Source: Bacteroidales bacterium
Lineage (GTDB): Bacteria > Bacteroidota > Bacteroidia > Bacteroidales > UBA12077
Direction: 5' to 3'
DNA length: 39,983 nucleotides
Assembly: GCA_027859205.1 (NCBI GenBank)
Contig: JAQIBH010000002.1
Span: 1-39,983, forward strand
Part shown: in pieces, positions 15,932 through 38,250 of the stretch
Layout: each line of letters starts with the position of its first letter
Numbering within the stretch: position 1 is the first letter of the stretch
Notes under the pieces: generated by a model
The model's input: the letters and a program-made list of their open reading frames with translations, nothing else
What the model was told of the DNA's origin: nothing
The model's database searches: none
Made by a program: the position numbers and the translations under genes

Positions 15932-18808
15932 CTATCTGTGGCAAATTTTACGGTAGGCACAGTATTCGCAATTTCGGTTATCTTCAGTTTGCGAAAAGCT
16001 AATCTCAGAATTAAAAATATCACTTATTAATTGTTTTAAGTTTTCGAGATAATTGTCCGCAACTGTATTGTAATCATTTATATATGATTTGGAATCTTTA
16101 TTGTAAATTCGGTAATCAAAATTATTGTCATATAATTTACGAGCAGAATATACTCCTGCAGTTATTGGTAATTGTGGTTTTTTAGTATCCTTATAAAACT
16201 TAGAGTACAAAAAGGCTTGAAAAACTGCAGAGTTTTGATCCGTTTTTTTATCTGAAAACAGAGCTTCAATATTTTTATATTCCAGTTTATCACTGCCTGT
16301 TTTGTAATCGATTATTCGAATGCGATTGTTTTGTTTATCAACTCGGTCTATTTTCCCGCCTAGCTTAATAAGCTCAAATGTTCCGTTTTTTGCAATAGGA
16401 ATTTCAATGATATATTCATTTTCAAGGGATAAAATTTCAAAAGGAGTAAAGCGCTCATCAACCTTAAGAATCTGATAAATATATTTTTCGATTAATTCAC
16501 GAATAATAATATTTTTGCCCGTATAATTTATCTTGCTAGCGGACATGAAATATTCATCTTTAAAGGCTTGGTCGATATGTGTTGCTATTTTTGCTTTATC
16601 CTTTAAAATATTTTTAATGATTTCCTGATTTACTTCTTTACCAATAAAATCGAGGTATACATAATTCATTGCCTGATGTAGAATATTCCCAAATAGAGGC
16701 GCATCGATTTCTTCCGTCAGCTCATCTTTTTCTCGCAATTCGGCTACATAACGAAAATAAAACTGTAGGTGGCAACGCAAATATGTGCTTAATGCACTTG
16801 GGGATAAGTATTTAGATTTCTTAGATGCTGACTGAAATTTAGTAAGTTTATCAATTATTTCGACGGTTTTTTTAATATTAATCTCTTTGGTTTGTGTAAT
16901 GTTAATATCGTATCGTAGATTTTTTTCTTTAATTTCAAAATCTGATTCGAACTTGATCTGATACAAGAAACGGCTCATCTCGCCTGTTTGCATTCCATCT
17001 GTGCTAGAATTGTAAAGTAAGTAAATGTTCTTAGAACGCTGTATTAATCTGTAAAAATAATAGGCATAAATAGCATCTTGATGTTCAATAGTAGGTAATA
17101 CGAATCCTCGTCGTAAATTATAAGGAATAAATGAAAGAGCAGCATCTGTTTTTGGAAAAACACCCTCGTTAACCGATGTTATAAACAAATTCTCAAAATC
17201 GAGCAAACGGGTTTCCAGTATTCCCATAATTTGTAATCCTGAAAGGGGCTCTCCCGTAAATGGTATTCTTAAATTCTTGATAATCTTTCGTATAAGTCGA
17301 ATATAGGTTTCTGTTTTAATTCCGATTTGCTGTTCTTGCAAAACATCTTTAACTCTATTTATTGAAAGGTAAATATGATAAATGTATTCTTTCTCGAGCG
17401 AAGTGGTGTGAATAGTATTTTGTGCCCCTTGTTTTCCTAATGAGTTGTATATTGTATGTAGGATATTTAAAATGTACTCCGATAATTCAAGATAGGTATT
17501 AATTTTGGTAAAAATCTTTTTAAAGAAATCACAATTAGCTAATTCGCTGGCAGTAATCACGATTCTATTGTTCTTTTTTATGAACTGCAAAAGTTTGTTT
17601 GATTCATCTTTAAATTGAGTATTTACATATTGATGACTAAGAATTGCAACTATGTTTTTATGATAAAAAGTAATTTCTTTTTTAGTTTCTTTGGCATTTT
17701 TTTGTAACTCAATTATATGTTCCAAGAGACTGTAAATAGGAGTGTTATTCACAGGATATCCCATTGTAATATTTACTTTGTCAATGGTATCTGGTACTGA
17801 ATGCAATACGGGAACCAGTAATTCTTCGTCGGCTAAAACAATGGCTGTTTTATTGGGCGACTCGGCAATATTATCGCCAAGTTCTTTCAGTTTTTGAGAA
17901 ATTACTTTTGCTTGAGCTACATCCGATGGAACAGAAATTATTTCAATGTGCTTTTTCTGTGCTAAGGTTTTGAATATATCTTGATTAGATATGCTTAACG
18001 GTTGTTTATATTGATTAATATTCTCACGTAAAAATAATCCTGCTTCGTGATGTTGATTATTAACATAGCTCTGATCGTAATCCCAATAAAAATCCGCTGC
18101 TTTGATATTTTGCAGATAATCGAAGAATTTTTTTTCGCAATTGTTTAGCGCATTAAATCCTACAAAAACATATTTTTTGTGTGATAAATCAATTTTATCA
18201 TTTCCTTTAATTTTATCCGCAACTGCTCTGTAAATCATTCCTTCATACGCAATACTAAGCTCATTTAACTTTTTATTGAATTCTTTATAAATCTCAAGTA
18301 GAATATTCCAAATGCTAATGAAATCATCCTGATGATTAGATTGTTTTTCGAGATTGAAACTTTGCCAAAACTTCTTTATCGCCTTAATCTGTTCATCCGA
18401 CAAATAATTAAATTGATCTTGAATTGATTTTAGTGATTTCAGATTCTTAAATAAATCTTCCGGATTTATAAGATATTTATCAATATCATCGAAATCGTTA
18501 AGCATCATTTCGCCCCAGAAATAGAAATCGTCAAAGCTTTCTTCCGACTTTTTAATAGGTTTATAAATTCGATATAATTCAAATAAAAGTTTAATATTAT
18601 CGGCAGTTGTTAAACCCGAAATTTCTTGCATTAATTCATTAATGGTAGTAGTTTTTGGCGACCATATTGGTTTGTTAGTCAGCTCCGAAAGGTATTTCTT
18701 AAAATATAAACTTGCTCTACGATTAGGAAAAACAATACATAGGTCTGAAATTTTATCTTTGTACTTTTTATAGAGGTCAGTTGCTATGTATTTAAGAAAT
18801 GAGTTCAT
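15932..18808 (-). CDS. addB: AddB-like subunit: PD-(D/E)XK nuclease with iron-staple cysteines
   Basis: 958 residues. The N-terminal half is a degenerate helicase domain without a good Walker A, as expected for AddB. The C-terminal nuclease domain begins LSPSALSTYLRCHLQFYFRY, with Cys679, and contains RIRIIDYKTG with the catalytic Asp834 and Lys836. It ends NCEYCAYRKICHR with Cys947, Cys950 and Cys956. One cysteine before and three after the nuclease core form the 4Fe-4S staple known from AddB and Cas4-like nucleases. It works with AddA (20401-23667) to resect double-strand breaks for RecA loading. Unusually, two unrelated genes lie between the subunits. Confidence 0.87.
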   Translation of the reverse strand: MNSFLKYIATDLYKKYKDKISDLCIVFPNRRASLYFKKYLSELTNKPIWSPKTTTINELMQEISGLTTADNIKLLFELYRIYKPIKKSEESFDDFYFWGEMMLNDFDDIDKYLINPEDLFKNLKSLKSIQDQFNYLSDEQIKAIKKFWQSFNLEKQSNHQDDFISIWNILLEIYKEFNKKLNELSIAYEGMIYRAVADKIKGNDKIDLSHKKYVFVGFNALNNCEKKFFDYLQNIKAADFYWDYDQSYVNNQHHEAGLFLRENINQYKQPLSISNQDIFKTLAQKKHIEIISVPSDVAQAKVISQKLKELGDNIAESPNKTAIVLADEELLVPVLHSVPDTIDKVNITMGYPVNNTPIYSLLEHIIELQKNAKETKKEITFYHKNIVAILSHQYVNTQFKDESNKLLQFIKKNNRIVITASELANCDFFKKIFTKINTYLELSEYILNILHTIYNSLGKQGAQNTIHTTSLEKEYIYHIYLSINRVKDVLQEQQIGIKTETYIRLIRKIIKNLRIPFTGEPLSGLQIMGILETRLLDFENLFITSVNEGVFPKTDAALSFIPYNLRRGFVLPTIEHQDAIYAYYFYRLIQRSKNIYLLYNSSTDGMQTGEMSRFLYQIKFESDFEIKEKNLRYDINITQTKEINIKKTVEIIDKLTKFQSASKKSKYLSPSALSTYLRCHLQFYFRYVAELREKDELTEEIDAPLFGNILHQAMNYVYLDFIGKEVNQEIIKNILKDKAKIATHIDQAFKDEYFMSASKINYTGKNIIIRELIEKYIYQILKVDERFTPFEILSLENEYIIEIPIAKNGTFELIKLGGKIDRVDKQNNRIRIIDYKTGSDKLEYKNIEALFSDKKTDQNSAVFQAFLYSKFYKDTKKPQLPITAGVYSARKLYDNNFDYRIYNKDSKSYINDYNTVADNYLENLKQLISDIFNSEISFSQTEDNRNCEYCAYRKICHR

Positions 18809-18823
18809 TTTACAAGTTTGAAT

Positions 18824-18879
18824 AAGAATAAAGATAAAAGTAAAAAGATAAAAGTTTAAAAAATTAAAGATTAAGGATT
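18824..18879. repeat. AAG-type heptamer array, downstream side of the four-helix-bundle gene
   Basis: Eight consecutive seven-base words, nearly all starting with AAG or AAA (such as AAGATAA and AAGTAAA), run in exact 7-nt phase from 18824 to 18879. The array overlaps the last codons and stop of the four-helix-bundle gene. The segment 18837-18853 recurs, inverted and without mismatch, at 19270-19286. Confidence 0.75.
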
Positions 18880-19235
18880 ATTTTTTTGAACTTGATTTTG
18901 TAACAATTGAACCTAATATCTTTTTTAATTCTGGATTCATTTATTAAGCATTCTAATTCATTATTATCATAAGCCTTTTCAATTGTAGCTTTAATTAATC
19001 TTAACCAATAATTTGATTCTCTCATTTCTCTTAAAGAGATTCTTACTTTATTTGTAAAGTCAGCCCTAGATGAGCCAGCTTGTGCTTCTTCATAGTTTGC
19101 TCCTGAAGATGAAGAACTTTTTGTAAGTTGGTATCTATATATTTTTACTTCAGGCGAATCTGATAATGTTTTTAGAAATTTAATTGTTCTTACTGCAAAT
19201 TTAAAAAGCCGTTGAGTTAATTCGTTTTCAGCCAT
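18864..19235 (-). CDS. four-helix-bundle protein of the S23 / IVP / Avd-like family
   Basis: 123 residues. It is all helical, with the family hallmarks LFKFAVRTIKFLKTL, YRYQLTKSSSSSGANYEEA and RISLREMRESNYWLRL (TIGR02436-type). Relatives are encoded in intervening sequences inside 23S rRNA genes, and others (Avd) assist diversity-generating retroelements. They bind nucleic acid; the function of free-standing copies is unknown. Here it is inserted between addB and yhcC with no rRNA or reverse transcriptase nearby. On both sides it is bordered by AAG-type heptamer arrays in inverted orientation; the upstream array runs to within one base of its ATG. This suggests the gene and its borders arrived as a unit. 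Confidence 0.85.
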   Translation of the reverse strand: MAENELTQRLFKFAVRTIKFLKTLSDSPEVKIYRYQLTKSSSSSGANYEEAQAGSSRADFTNKVRISLREMRESNYWLRLIKATIEKAYDNNELECLINESRIKKDIRFNCYKIKFKKIILNL

Positions 19236-19236
19236 T

Positions 19237-19320
19237 ATTGTATGTTTATATATTTGTTTTACTTCTAATTTTTATCTTTTTACTTTGGTCTTTTGTCTTT
19301 TTACTTTATCCTTTTATCTT
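19237..19320. repeat. AAG-type heptamer array, upstream side of the four-helix-bundle gene
   Basis: Read on the minus strand, twelve seven-base words run in strict phase from 19320 to 19237, and seven of the first nine start AAG (for example AAGTAAA twice and AAGATAA twice). The outer three words fall in the last codons and stop of the yhcC gene (encoding its DKRIK tail). The inner end stops one base before the ATG of the four-helix-bundle gene at 19235. Confidence 0.75.
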
Positions 19321-20260
19321 GATATAGTCTTCCTTGCCACGTATCCAACTCTTCCAGTCGTTTTTCAAATTTATTTAATATCTGATCATTTCGAATTAAT
19401 CCCCAACCCGGGCCTGCTAAAAAGCGCGGAGGCACCTCTCCGGCAAATCGCTCAACCACAAATTTAGGATTTAATCGTTCCAAGTATTGAATAAAAAACT
19501 CAATATATTCAGGTAATTCATAAAAATTGAAATTCTCAGGATTTTCTTTATATTCTTTTTCCATTGCTGTGTTTTTAATAATCTGTAACTGATGAAATTT
19601 AACAGTATCTAGAGGGAGAGAGGAGATTGTTTTTGCCTCGTTTAGAAGGTATTCTTTTGATTCCCCAGGTAATCCGAAAATGAAATGCGCTCCTGTTTTT
19701 AATCCATATTGCTTGGTCTTTTCCAAAGCTTCAACTGCTTCTTCGAAAGTATGACCACGATTAATACGTTTCAAGGTATCATTATTGCACGATTCAATTC
19801 CATATTCCAAAATGATATAATATTTCTCAGAAAGTTTTTGAAAATACTCTAGTTTTTCATCATCAATACAATCTGGACGTGTGCCAATAACCAGACCTAC
19901 AATGCCTTCCATTTGTAGCGCTTCGTCGTATATCTTTTTTAGTTCTTTGAGAGGTTTATAGGTGTTCGAATATGCCTGGAAATATGCTAAGAATTTATTT
20001 GCTCGTCGGTATCGTTTTTCATGAAATTCAATTCCTTCGTTAATTTGCTGACTTACCGATTTTTCGGGAGTACAATATGAAGGATTAAAAGCATCATTAT
20101 TGCAATAGGTACATCCACCGGTTCCTTTTGATCCATCACGATTCGGACAAGTAAATCCCGCATCAATTGTAACTTTTTGTACACGCTCGCCAAACGTACG
20201 TTTAAAGTATTCGCTGTATGAATTAAATCGTCTGTTATGATCCCAAGGGTAGTCTGTCAT
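19301..20260 (-). CDS. yhcC: YhcC-type radical SAM protein (TIGR01212)
   Basis: 319 residues, the family length. The cluster motif is unusual for radical SAM enzymes: Cys38, Cys50 and Cys53 (C-x11-C-x2-C within TCPNRDGSKGTGGCTYC). This, with the start YPWDHNRRFNSYSEYFK, is diagnostic for the TIGR01212/YhcC group. The enzyme uses a 4Fe-4S cluster and S-adenosylmethionine; relatives are Elp3-like in the core, and the substrate is not established. The last five residues lie inside the heptamer array that borders the four-helix-bundle gene, so its C-terminus may have been rewritten by that sequence. Confidence 0.88.
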   Translation of the reverse strand: MTDYPWDHNRRFNSYSEYFKRTFGERVQKVTIDAGFTCPNRDGSKGTGGCTYCNNDAFNPSYCTPEKSVSQQINEGIEFHEKRYRRANKFLAYFQAYSNTYKPLKELKKIYDEALQMEGIVGLVIGTRPDCIDDEKLEYFQKLSEKYYIILEYGIESCNNDTLKRINRGHTFEEAVEALEKTKQYGLKTGAHFIFGLPGESKEYLLNEAKTISSLPLDTVKFHQLQIIKNTAMEKEYKENPENFNFYELPEYIEFFIQYLERLNPKFVVERFAGEVPPRFLAGPGWGLIRNDQILNKFEKRLEELDTWQGRLYQDKRIK

Positions 20261-30010: not shown

Positions 30011-30039
30011 GAAAAGGAGACTTTTTAATAATTAAAAAT

Positions 30040-30144
30040 GATACAAGATACAGGATACAGGATACATTGGCAGTAATCAATTGGCAGTGGGCAGATTGAA
30101 ACTTTTAGCATGAAGCATGTAGTTAATAGCTAGCAGCTTGTCTT
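30040..30144. repeat. mosaic heptamer array of three word families in one 7-nt phase
   Basis: Fifteen seven-base words without a phase break. Four GATACAx words come first (30040-30067), then TGGCAGT words at 30068 and 30082 with GGGCAGA at 30089. After a transition follow words ending in AGC or AGT, such as ATGAAGC at 30110 and TAGCAGC at 30131. The array fills the gap between the second MinD-like gene and the second NifX-like gene. It has no coding frame of note. Confidence 0.75.
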
Positions 30145-30213
30145 TAAATGAAATAAGATTGATAAAGTTTATAACATTAATTAGAAAAATAAATTATAAA
30201 AACTATATAAAAA

Positions 30214-38193: not shown

Positions 38194-38250
38194 AACTATA
38201 AAACACGAATATATAAACTATGAACTTTTAACTCAGAACTATAAACTAAT
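38194..38250. repeat. AACT-type heptamer array before the ABC ATPase
   Basis: Eight seven-base words in phase, many containing AACT at a fixed place (AAACTAT, GAACTTT, GAACTAT). The array runs from 38194 into the ATG of the ATPase gene, so it forms the whole 5' leader between the barrel and ATPase genes. Confidence 0.65.

Follow-up and report, generated by a model that had tools for sequence, protein, structure and literature searches.

An S23/IVP gene between matched inverted heptamer arrays suggests a family of transposase-free mobile elements in Bacteroidota and other phyla

The element in the window

The DNA analyzed here, referred to as the window, is a stretch of 39,983 nt of contig JAQIBH010000002.1 from a Bacteroidales bacterium (assembly GCA_027859205.1). 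Between positions 18,824 and 19,320 it harbors a gene of the S23/IVP family enclosed by two arrays of seven-nucleotide words in opposite orientation, called below the 5' and 3' arms. An earlier note, made from the sequence alone, had proposed that the gene and the arrays form one system, possibly a mobile one. The unit and its neighbors are composed as follows.

18864..19235, minus strand: S23/IVP gene (TIGR02436, PF05635), encoding a four-helix bundle, identified by profile matches
19257..19320, minus strand: 5' arm, an array of AAG-type heptamers on the coding strand, overlapping the final yhcC codons
18824..18880, plus strand: 3' arm, the inverted array, opposite to the gene
18837..18853, plus strand: left half of a 17-bp perfect inverted repeat
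19270..19286, minus strand: right half of the same inverted repeat
19301..20260, minus strand: yhcC-like radical-SAM gene, the upstream neighbor, a host gene outside the element (name from the earlier note)
15932..18808, minus strand: addB-like gene with a PD-(D/E)XK domain, the downstream neighbor, a host gene outside the element (name from the earlier note)

The gene scores 57.8 bits against TIGR02436 (cut-off 24) and 43.5 bits against PF05635 (cut-off 33.8), which places it in the family. It is the sole open reading frame (ORF) between the arms, where no nuclease or transposase domain was found. By eye, the window copy seems frameshifted near its C-terminus: it departs from its relatives at about residue 101 of 123, and its C-terminal tail differs from that of the same-site copies in these relatives. 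An Rfam search of the window gave no match, and the copy lies between yhcC and addB, not within a 23S rRNA helix.

The words of the 5' arm are AAGATAA AAGGATA AAGTAAA AAGACAA AAGACCA AAGTAAA AAGATAA AAATTAG AAGTAAA, and those of the 3' arm, read on the plus strand, are AAGAATA AAGATAA AAGTAAA AAGATAA AAGTTTA AAAAATT AAAGATT AAGGATT. The yhcC stop codon falls within the 5' arm, and the upstream array does extend into the last yhcC codons, as the earlier note had said. That note was also right that heptamer arrays of opposite orientation lie on both sides of the gene, and its coordinates for the 17-bp perfect inverted repeat are exact. Its statement that the words start with AAG was too strong, as this holds for 6 of the 8 downstream and 8 of the 12 upstream words, and the last three before the ATG are not AAG words. 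Aligned with each other, the two arms score 42, against 20.0 +/- 3.3 for dinucleotide shuffles, none of which reached that value (0/2000); the match exceeds what composition gives. Among 1000 shuffles, 9 reached the lag-7 score of the upstream arm and none the lag-14 score of the downstream arm; lag 14 upstream (183/1000) and lag 7 downstream (96/1000) are not significant.

Matched arms around S23/IVP genes in the genus and phylum

Arm matching was scored by aligning each upstream flank with each reverse-complemented downstream flank, and by comparing pairs from the same locus with pairs from different loci. The window's own genome contains 15 S23/IVP matches, of which two have an internal stop and three more are partial. 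Its same-locus score is 30.0, against 20.1 for different loci, a difference that none of 100000 permutations reached. Each of 20 genomes of the genus carries between 1 and 19 matches, and the family is present in 153 of 198 genomes of the phylum.

Together, the genus and phylum sets comprise 127 gene matches; two of them are fragments of a gene already counted, and many occupy orthologous sites. Lag-7 repetition in their flanks amounts to 6.80 upstream (n=127) and 6.85 downstream (n=125), compared with 3.8 and 3.7 in shuffled sequence. The autocorrelation also peaks at lag 14 and weakly at lags 8 and 16; the peaks at 7 and 14 are absent within the S23/IVP gene and 390-500 nt away. For the 125 elements with full flanks, the same-locus score is 27.4 versus 18.4 for other loci of the same genome, and 57 of them exceed the 95th percentile of the same-genome between-locus scores. 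In direct orientation the arm score stays at background (18.9). All seven multi-copy genomes are individually significant, with 0 to 41 of 20000 permutations reaching the observed value. As a control, 72 other genes of the own genome gave arm scores of 19.0 versus 18.4 (433/5000 permutations) and no lag-7 peak.

The sets used here overlap, except for an independent one in which 72 site groups that have no neighbor families in common are represented by a single locus each. In this set the same-locus score is 27.3 and the between-locus score 16.0, 42 of the 72 sites lie above the 95th percentile, and none of 20000 permutations did as well. Matched inverted arms around S23/IVP genes are thus a general rule and not the oddity of a single locus. 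The 7-nt autocorrelation beside such genes, for which the earlier note had proposed a comparison with controls, is enriched.

Other phyla, plasmids and viruses

A scan of named genomes yielded at least 589 loci, of which 80 were kept and 75 had full flanks. The 49 Bacteroidota loci among them score 28.7 versus 16.4 (33 above the 95th percentile), and the 26 loci from outside this phylum 31.7 versus 15.9 (17 above), with lag-7 values of 9.6 and 10.2. By record title, the latter include Desulfobacteraceae, Nitrospirae, KSB1, Clostridia, Anaerolineae, Acidobacteria, Gammaproteobacteria, and a Nomurabacterium, and the inverted-arm layout is found in about ten phyla beyond that of the window. Ten of these genomes were searched whole and gave 29 usable elements (38.9 versus 15.8); the 20 that were new to the count score 37.0 versus 15.4, with 14 above the 95th percentile and none of 20000 permutations as high.

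Plasmids also carry the gene, with matches in 28 records, mostly cyanobacterial. Nine cyanobacterial loci were inspected: six have clear arms (two of them on near-identical plasmids), with words such as GGGAGTA, GGGAACA, and GGGTGTA, and three have none that are clear. A single S23/IVP query found no match in 50,697 phage records. In IMG/VR, 20 viral contigs contain an S23/IVP gene; the 13 non-duplicate contigs with full flanks score 29.5 versus 15.4, and 8 exceed the 95th percentile.

Two elements lie in CRISPR-cas operons: one in Pseudanabaena (L315) is inserted between the annotated cas6 and cas4 genes, and one in a Nitrospirae record (L221) lies, by eye, directly ahead of the start of a Cas2-like gene. 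Near a KSB1 element, two Acido-Lenti-1 RNA matches (Rfam RF01687) were found (L219, 2486-2531 and 3059-3104).

Word, period and drift of the arms

Of 200 elements, 55 have strong periodicity in each of the two arms, and in 48 of these the periods agree: 7 and 7 in 35, 8 and 8 in 10, 9 and 9 in 3. The words themselves vary widely, since 72 strong 7-nt upstream arms contain 62 different words, and several words coexist in one genome, one per element. On the coding strand of the upstream arm, C is scarce (8.5%). Among 16 groups of orthologous sites, one of which holds two fragments of a single gene, two arms taken from one species match better than arms taken from different species (p = 0.00065), from which it follows that the word drifts while the match is kept.

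The period clusters on the protein tree, with 9 changes compared with 14.1 after shuffling and none of 300 shuffles as low. A model in which the protein sets or reads the period was considered and rejected: it is only above about 60% protein identity that pairs agree in period clearly more often than by chance, and inheritance therefore explains the clustering. A GC-rich hairpin repeat (gcctgcctgtcggcag...) was noticed by eye in or near some arms (in the upstream arm of L031, and at L128 and L136); it seems to be a dispersed repeat in its own right in these genomes.

Gene and arms as one unit, and filled and empty sites

When 207 sites were grouped into 76 sets without shared neighbor families, arm similarity between sets was at background below 60% protein identity. 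At higher identity, at least one arm is clearly shared between these non-orthologous copies, in 6 of 7 pairs at 70-80% and in 6 of 6 pairs above 80%. The flanks of the same pairs 385-500 nt away are near background (17.7 and 19.3 versus about 15). Non-orthologous copies that share arms also occur within one genome (L081/L092 and L162/L163). A further case is provided by two metagenome assemblies titled Nitrospirae (L221) and Desulfobacteraceae (L222), which match at 301 of 436 positions; the match begins at -34, ends at +22 relative to the gene, and does not extend beyond. In one genome of the genus (G017, contig C122), three related S23/IVP elements with similar arms (L179-L181) lie within about 4 kb. 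At the locus L286, from a named genome, the sequence is identical to a G017 copy.

The junction occupied in the window was compared in the 17 genomes of the genus, own included, in which both yhcC and addB are readable; two more genomes are unreadable at this point. An element or remnant is present in six: it is whole or nearly so in G000, G015, G016, and G017, has a broken gene in G018, and in G014 has lost an internal part. From the remaining 11 it is absent, and several of these have other short-period arrays instead (by eye); different words stand at the gene-less junction in G007, G005, G009, G002, and G008 (also by eye). The earlier note had proposed looking for an empty junction in close relatives, and among the other species of the genus the gene is indeed present at this site in some and absent from others.

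Nostocales plasmids offer further filled and empty sites. Between the TraM gene and the next gene, two plasmids carry an element, two others (about 95% identical) have plain sequence without it, and a fifth has arms of that kind but no gene, in what appears to be the same insertion as at the filled sites. Likewise, an element lies beside an integrase gene in two plasmids, where three others have a 3-nt gap. An array of a different heptamer word, AATTACG, occupies the 'empty' cas6-cas4 junction of Pseudanabaena ABRG5-3 (L326, 900-1010; by eye). The same junctions seem to attract arrays repeatedly, as at cas6-cas4 in L326 and at yhcC-addB in the gene-less Bacteroidota relatives.

Arrays without the gene

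Two arm words were searched in 18 genomes, the genomes predicted to contain them being those in which they form arms. The word AGGGRACAGGGRACAG gave 101 matches in its predicted genome (G222) and none in the 17 others. AGTGRTTAGTGRTTAG gave 98, 12, and 7 matches in three predicted genomes and none in 13. Two S23/IVP copies of G199 were not located, and a few of the arrays of this genome may flank them. In G222, none of 20 sampled arrays away from the element has the gene.

Selection on the protein and its charge

Among pairs at 75-98% protein identity (89 same-site and 9 different-site pairs), the median dN/dS is 0.10, an identity range that favors low values, with pairs that are not independent. 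A wider choice gave medians of 0.17 for 189 same-site and 0.19 for 26 different-site pairs. Ratios of about 0.1 to 0.2 indicate purifying selection, and hence that the protein works. It is basic, with a median isoelectric point of 8.8 over 108 proteins. The solved relatives 2GSC and 2RLD have five chains each, and passages of PMC4990558 state a pentamer.

Relation to known systems

The closest known system is the intervening sequence (IVS) of 23S rRNA with an S23p ORF, known from Coxiella, Leptospira, and others, which encodes the same protein family between inverted repeats. In Coxiella, according to the passages of PMC4990558 on this IVS, a terminal stem of 28 bp accompanies the S23p ORF, and the start of this ORF is directly preceded by tandem GACAGAT heptamers, whose copy number varies between strains. 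The present loci have both an S23p-type ORF between complementary ends and heptamers before its start. They differ in location: an IVS lies in rRNA, whereas the window copy lies between protein-coding genes and is therefore not classed as an IVS, and no rRNA was found around 20 related loci. In addition, the roughly 200 loci studied here mostly have their own word, and the same passages mention no dispersed copies outside rRNA. Within open-licence papers, no report was found that links S23/IVP genes to heptamer arrays outside rRNA.

Heptamer arrays as such are well known. The relevant passages of PMC6344855 call them the most abundant intergenic tandem DNA repeats in many prokaryotes and see 'no clear clue' either to their function or to why the period is 7. 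Those of PMC4692102 describe the GGGAATC heptamers of Xanthomonas as often arranged in convergent pairs (70 cases in Xcc), the GGGGA(T/C)T repeats of Nostoc as having few inverted pairs, and such repeats as having no general association with mobile elements. These repeats, and TAACTGA in Beggiatoaceae, share the heptamer period of the arms and are largely intergenic, and no partner gene is described for them in the passages concerned. An exact GGGAATC triple, searched in 369 genomes of the class of Thiohalocapsa, matched a single genome (G593), whose one S23/IVP gene, a broken one, has GGGAATC words at its start and the complement after its end; gene-less inverted GGGAATC pairs lie elsewhere in that genome. 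Another genome, G381, was noticed through matches to the reversed control pattern, and its one S23/IVP gene lies between AGGGCCA arms. The STRR repeats of cyanobacteria are similar heptamer repeats.

The earlier note had also mentioned diversity-generating retroelements, whose accessory protein Avd from BPP-1 (4DWL) is structurally similar to the PF05635 protein 2GSC, as stated in passages of PMC10053308. The own genome (95.5% complete) has no match to the reverse transcriptase domain RVT_1, and the link is not supported there. Any RVT_1 match occurs in 6 of 19 genomes of the genus, and a retroelement model was rejected as 13 of the 19 have none. These retroelements are not known to have inverted heptamer ends.

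In REP elements with RAYT transposases, too, inverted repeats enclose a single gene, and non-autonomous copies of the repeat are dispersed elsewhere. The present elements differ from them in that no nuclease or transposase domain was found, and in that the tandem arrays at their ends are built from a word that varies between copies. With classical transposons, insertion sequences, and miniature inverted-repeat transposable elements they share multiple copies per genome and presence or absence at given sites, but the window unit encodes no transposase.

Finally, GxxExxY genes (PF13366) of the same genus also have matched inverted flanks. In 29 usable loci of 30 fetched (L119-L148, e.g. L127, L133, and L145), the score is 22.8 versus 18.4, with none of 20000 permutations as high, and 24 of 27 genes are co-directional with both neighbors. 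This different protein family has weaker periodicity, with a period of 8-10 in 9 of 15 clear loci and of 7 in one; in a comparison that used a wider upstream stretch, the proportion of period 7 versus 8 or 9 differs from that of the S23/IVP loci of the genus (Fisher p = 9e-5). The GxxExxY genes may be a second family of genes with ends of this type.

Proposed interpretation

We consider it probable that the window contains one copy of a mobile element of about 0.5 kb, in which inverted arrays of 7-9 nt words form the ends and enclose a single S23/IVP gene. The proposal of the earlier note that gene and arrays form one system is supported by arm matching that is specific to each locus across genomes and phyla, by arms that non-orthologous copies share only if their proteins are close and whose distal flanks are near background, by filled and empty sites, by the dispersal of the arm word in some genomes, and by the absence of the feature from other genes. 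Neither of the outcomes that it had named as contrary, namely no 7-nt enrichment near such genes or the gene being present at this site with non-repetitive flanks in all relatives, occurred.

How the element moves, and whether the protein touches the arrays, can be put forward as a putative scheme. The basic ring protein, with five subunits in its solved relatives, would bind the repeated words, perhaps one word per subunit. The TRAP protein, which reads NAG triplets, is a model for such an arrangement, and a TRAP-like ring reading one NAG every 7 nt is an idea that rests on the AG contained in 97 of 132 heptamer words. The protein would bring both ends together, and host enzymes would do the cutting and joining, the element being transposase-free; binding, synapsis, and strand transfer are all inferred. 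Slippage would lengthen and shorten the arrays, and one arm would be corrected from the other, a combination that would explain how the word drifts while the two ends stay matched. In Bacteroidota, the insertions that persist would be mostly those in short gaps that separate co-directional genes. Loss of the gene from a copy would leave single or paired arrays, and the 23S rRNA IVSs would be copies that landed in a tolerated rRNA loop.

Taken together, the results suggest a family of mobile elements that are about 0.5 kb long and lack a transposase, with rRNA IVSs as one outcome. A broader claim seems to us evenly balanced: that these are an unrecognized class of mobile element spread over many phyla, with the S23/IVP ring protein as sole gene and matched, drifting arrays of 7-9 nt words as ends, that they are a main source of intergenic heptamer arrays (GGGAATC and others), and that rRNA IVSs are trapped copies. 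If so, the role of the S23/IVP proteins of IVSs and the abundance of intergenic heptamer arrays become one question, in which each puzzle is paired with the other and gains a mechanism that can be tested. This may help to explain why heptamer repeats are dispersed in bacterial genomes. It would also be a mobile element whose recognition ends drift in sequence yet remain matched to each other; we know of no other element with such ends.

Several observations weigh against this interpretation. Concerning movement, no transposition or insertion event was caught, DNA identity is about 80-85% even for the most similar non-orthologous pairs of the genus, which thus reveal no recent movement, and no target-site duplication is visible by eye at sites A and B, whose flanks are about 5-10% diverged. 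The presence of the element at yhcC-addB does not follow the yhcC tree (5 changes, compared with 5.15 when shuffled, on a weak tree), which fits repeated loss as well as gain. The gene is under selection at fixed sites, something that a merely parasitic resident would not need. Concerning the arms, 68 of the 125 elements with full flanks do not exceed the 95th percentile of same-genome between-locus scores, 5 of the 16 orthologous groups lack arm matching above that of between-species pairs, among them the C75 site, present in 11 species, where covariation of the arms was not seen (20.4 versus 21.0). Concerning the dispersed words, AGGGRACAGGGRACAG read backwards as a control still has 8 matches in G222, where 19 of the 20 sampled arrays are one-sided and one is an inverted pair. 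AGTGRTTAGTGRTTAG also occurs in two genomes where it was not predicted, G226 (21 matches) and G015 (1). The 7 matches of AGTGRTTAGTGRTTAG in G221 all lie inside the element itself, so that dispersal is shown in three of four predicted genomes.

Alternative explanations

The alternative that survives best, although we regard it as unlikely, is an element or mRNA cassette that acts at the RNA level: the arms would pair in the transcript, RNase III would cut the stem, and selection on the stem would keep the match. RNase III excision is published for IVSs (in passages of PMC4990558), and the window element folds better than its shuffles, with z = -2.65 and the arms paired. Gene orientation points the same way. 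With neighbors called mechanically as ORFs, the Bacteroidota gene is co-directional with both at 113 of 120 loci and opposite to both at one; in independent site groups with both neighbors called, the counts are 31 of 35 and one. Ordinary ORFs of the same stretches are co-directional with both neighbors in 62 of 84 cases and opposite to both in 4. This bias is, however, weaker outside Bacteroidota (13 of 23, and 21 of 27 in a second count), and antisense insertions exist, one in Nostoc edaphicum between nrdB and nrdA and one in Calothrix PCC 7716. A wobble test over 114 elements also weighs against stem selection: mismatches between the arms are not biased towards G-U pairs (89 compatible and 129 incompatible, a count partly confounded by the A-rich upstream arm). 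A DNA element with a ring protein is favored because wobble mismatches are not favored and because RVT_1 was not found in 13 of 19 genomes of the genus, own included, some of these assemblies being incomplete.

We find it more doubtful still that an unrelated genome-wide process, with favorite heptamers in each genome, makes the arrays, and that the S23/IVP gene merely sits in them or is attracted to them. This would account for the commonness of gene-less arrays, which are mostly one-sided in G222, and for the different words at the same junction in gene-less relatives (yhcC-addB and plasmid site D, by eye). A mild lag-7 excess was also measured away from S23/IVP genes, in 58 intergenic gaps not beside them (5.03 versus about 4), a result that counts against the mobile element as well. 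A gene dropped into an array would, however, have the same orientation on both sides, whereas the array flips across the gene and the direct-orientation score remains at background. Several words coexist in a genome, one per element, and arms track protein relatedness across genomes; both count against such a process. Least probable is a resident, host-useful regulatory or structural device (for instance, of intercistronic control) that is inherited vertically, often lost, and not mobile, since the low same-site dN/dS in both selections of pairs and the site common to 11 species are outweighed by neighbor genes that vary between sites, by copies of the same family that occupy different sites in one genome and, arms included, recur in assemblies from different phyla, by copy numbers of up to 19 per genome, and by broken copies such as those of the own genome.

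Further arrays in the window

Two other arrays of similar period lie elsewhere in the window. Positions 30011-30213, which are intergenic, hold a gene-less composite heptamer array made of GATACAGG words followed by TTGGCAG words. A further array with a period of 7/14, TATAAACTAAGAAC, was reported by a tandem-repeat finder at positions 38212-38249.
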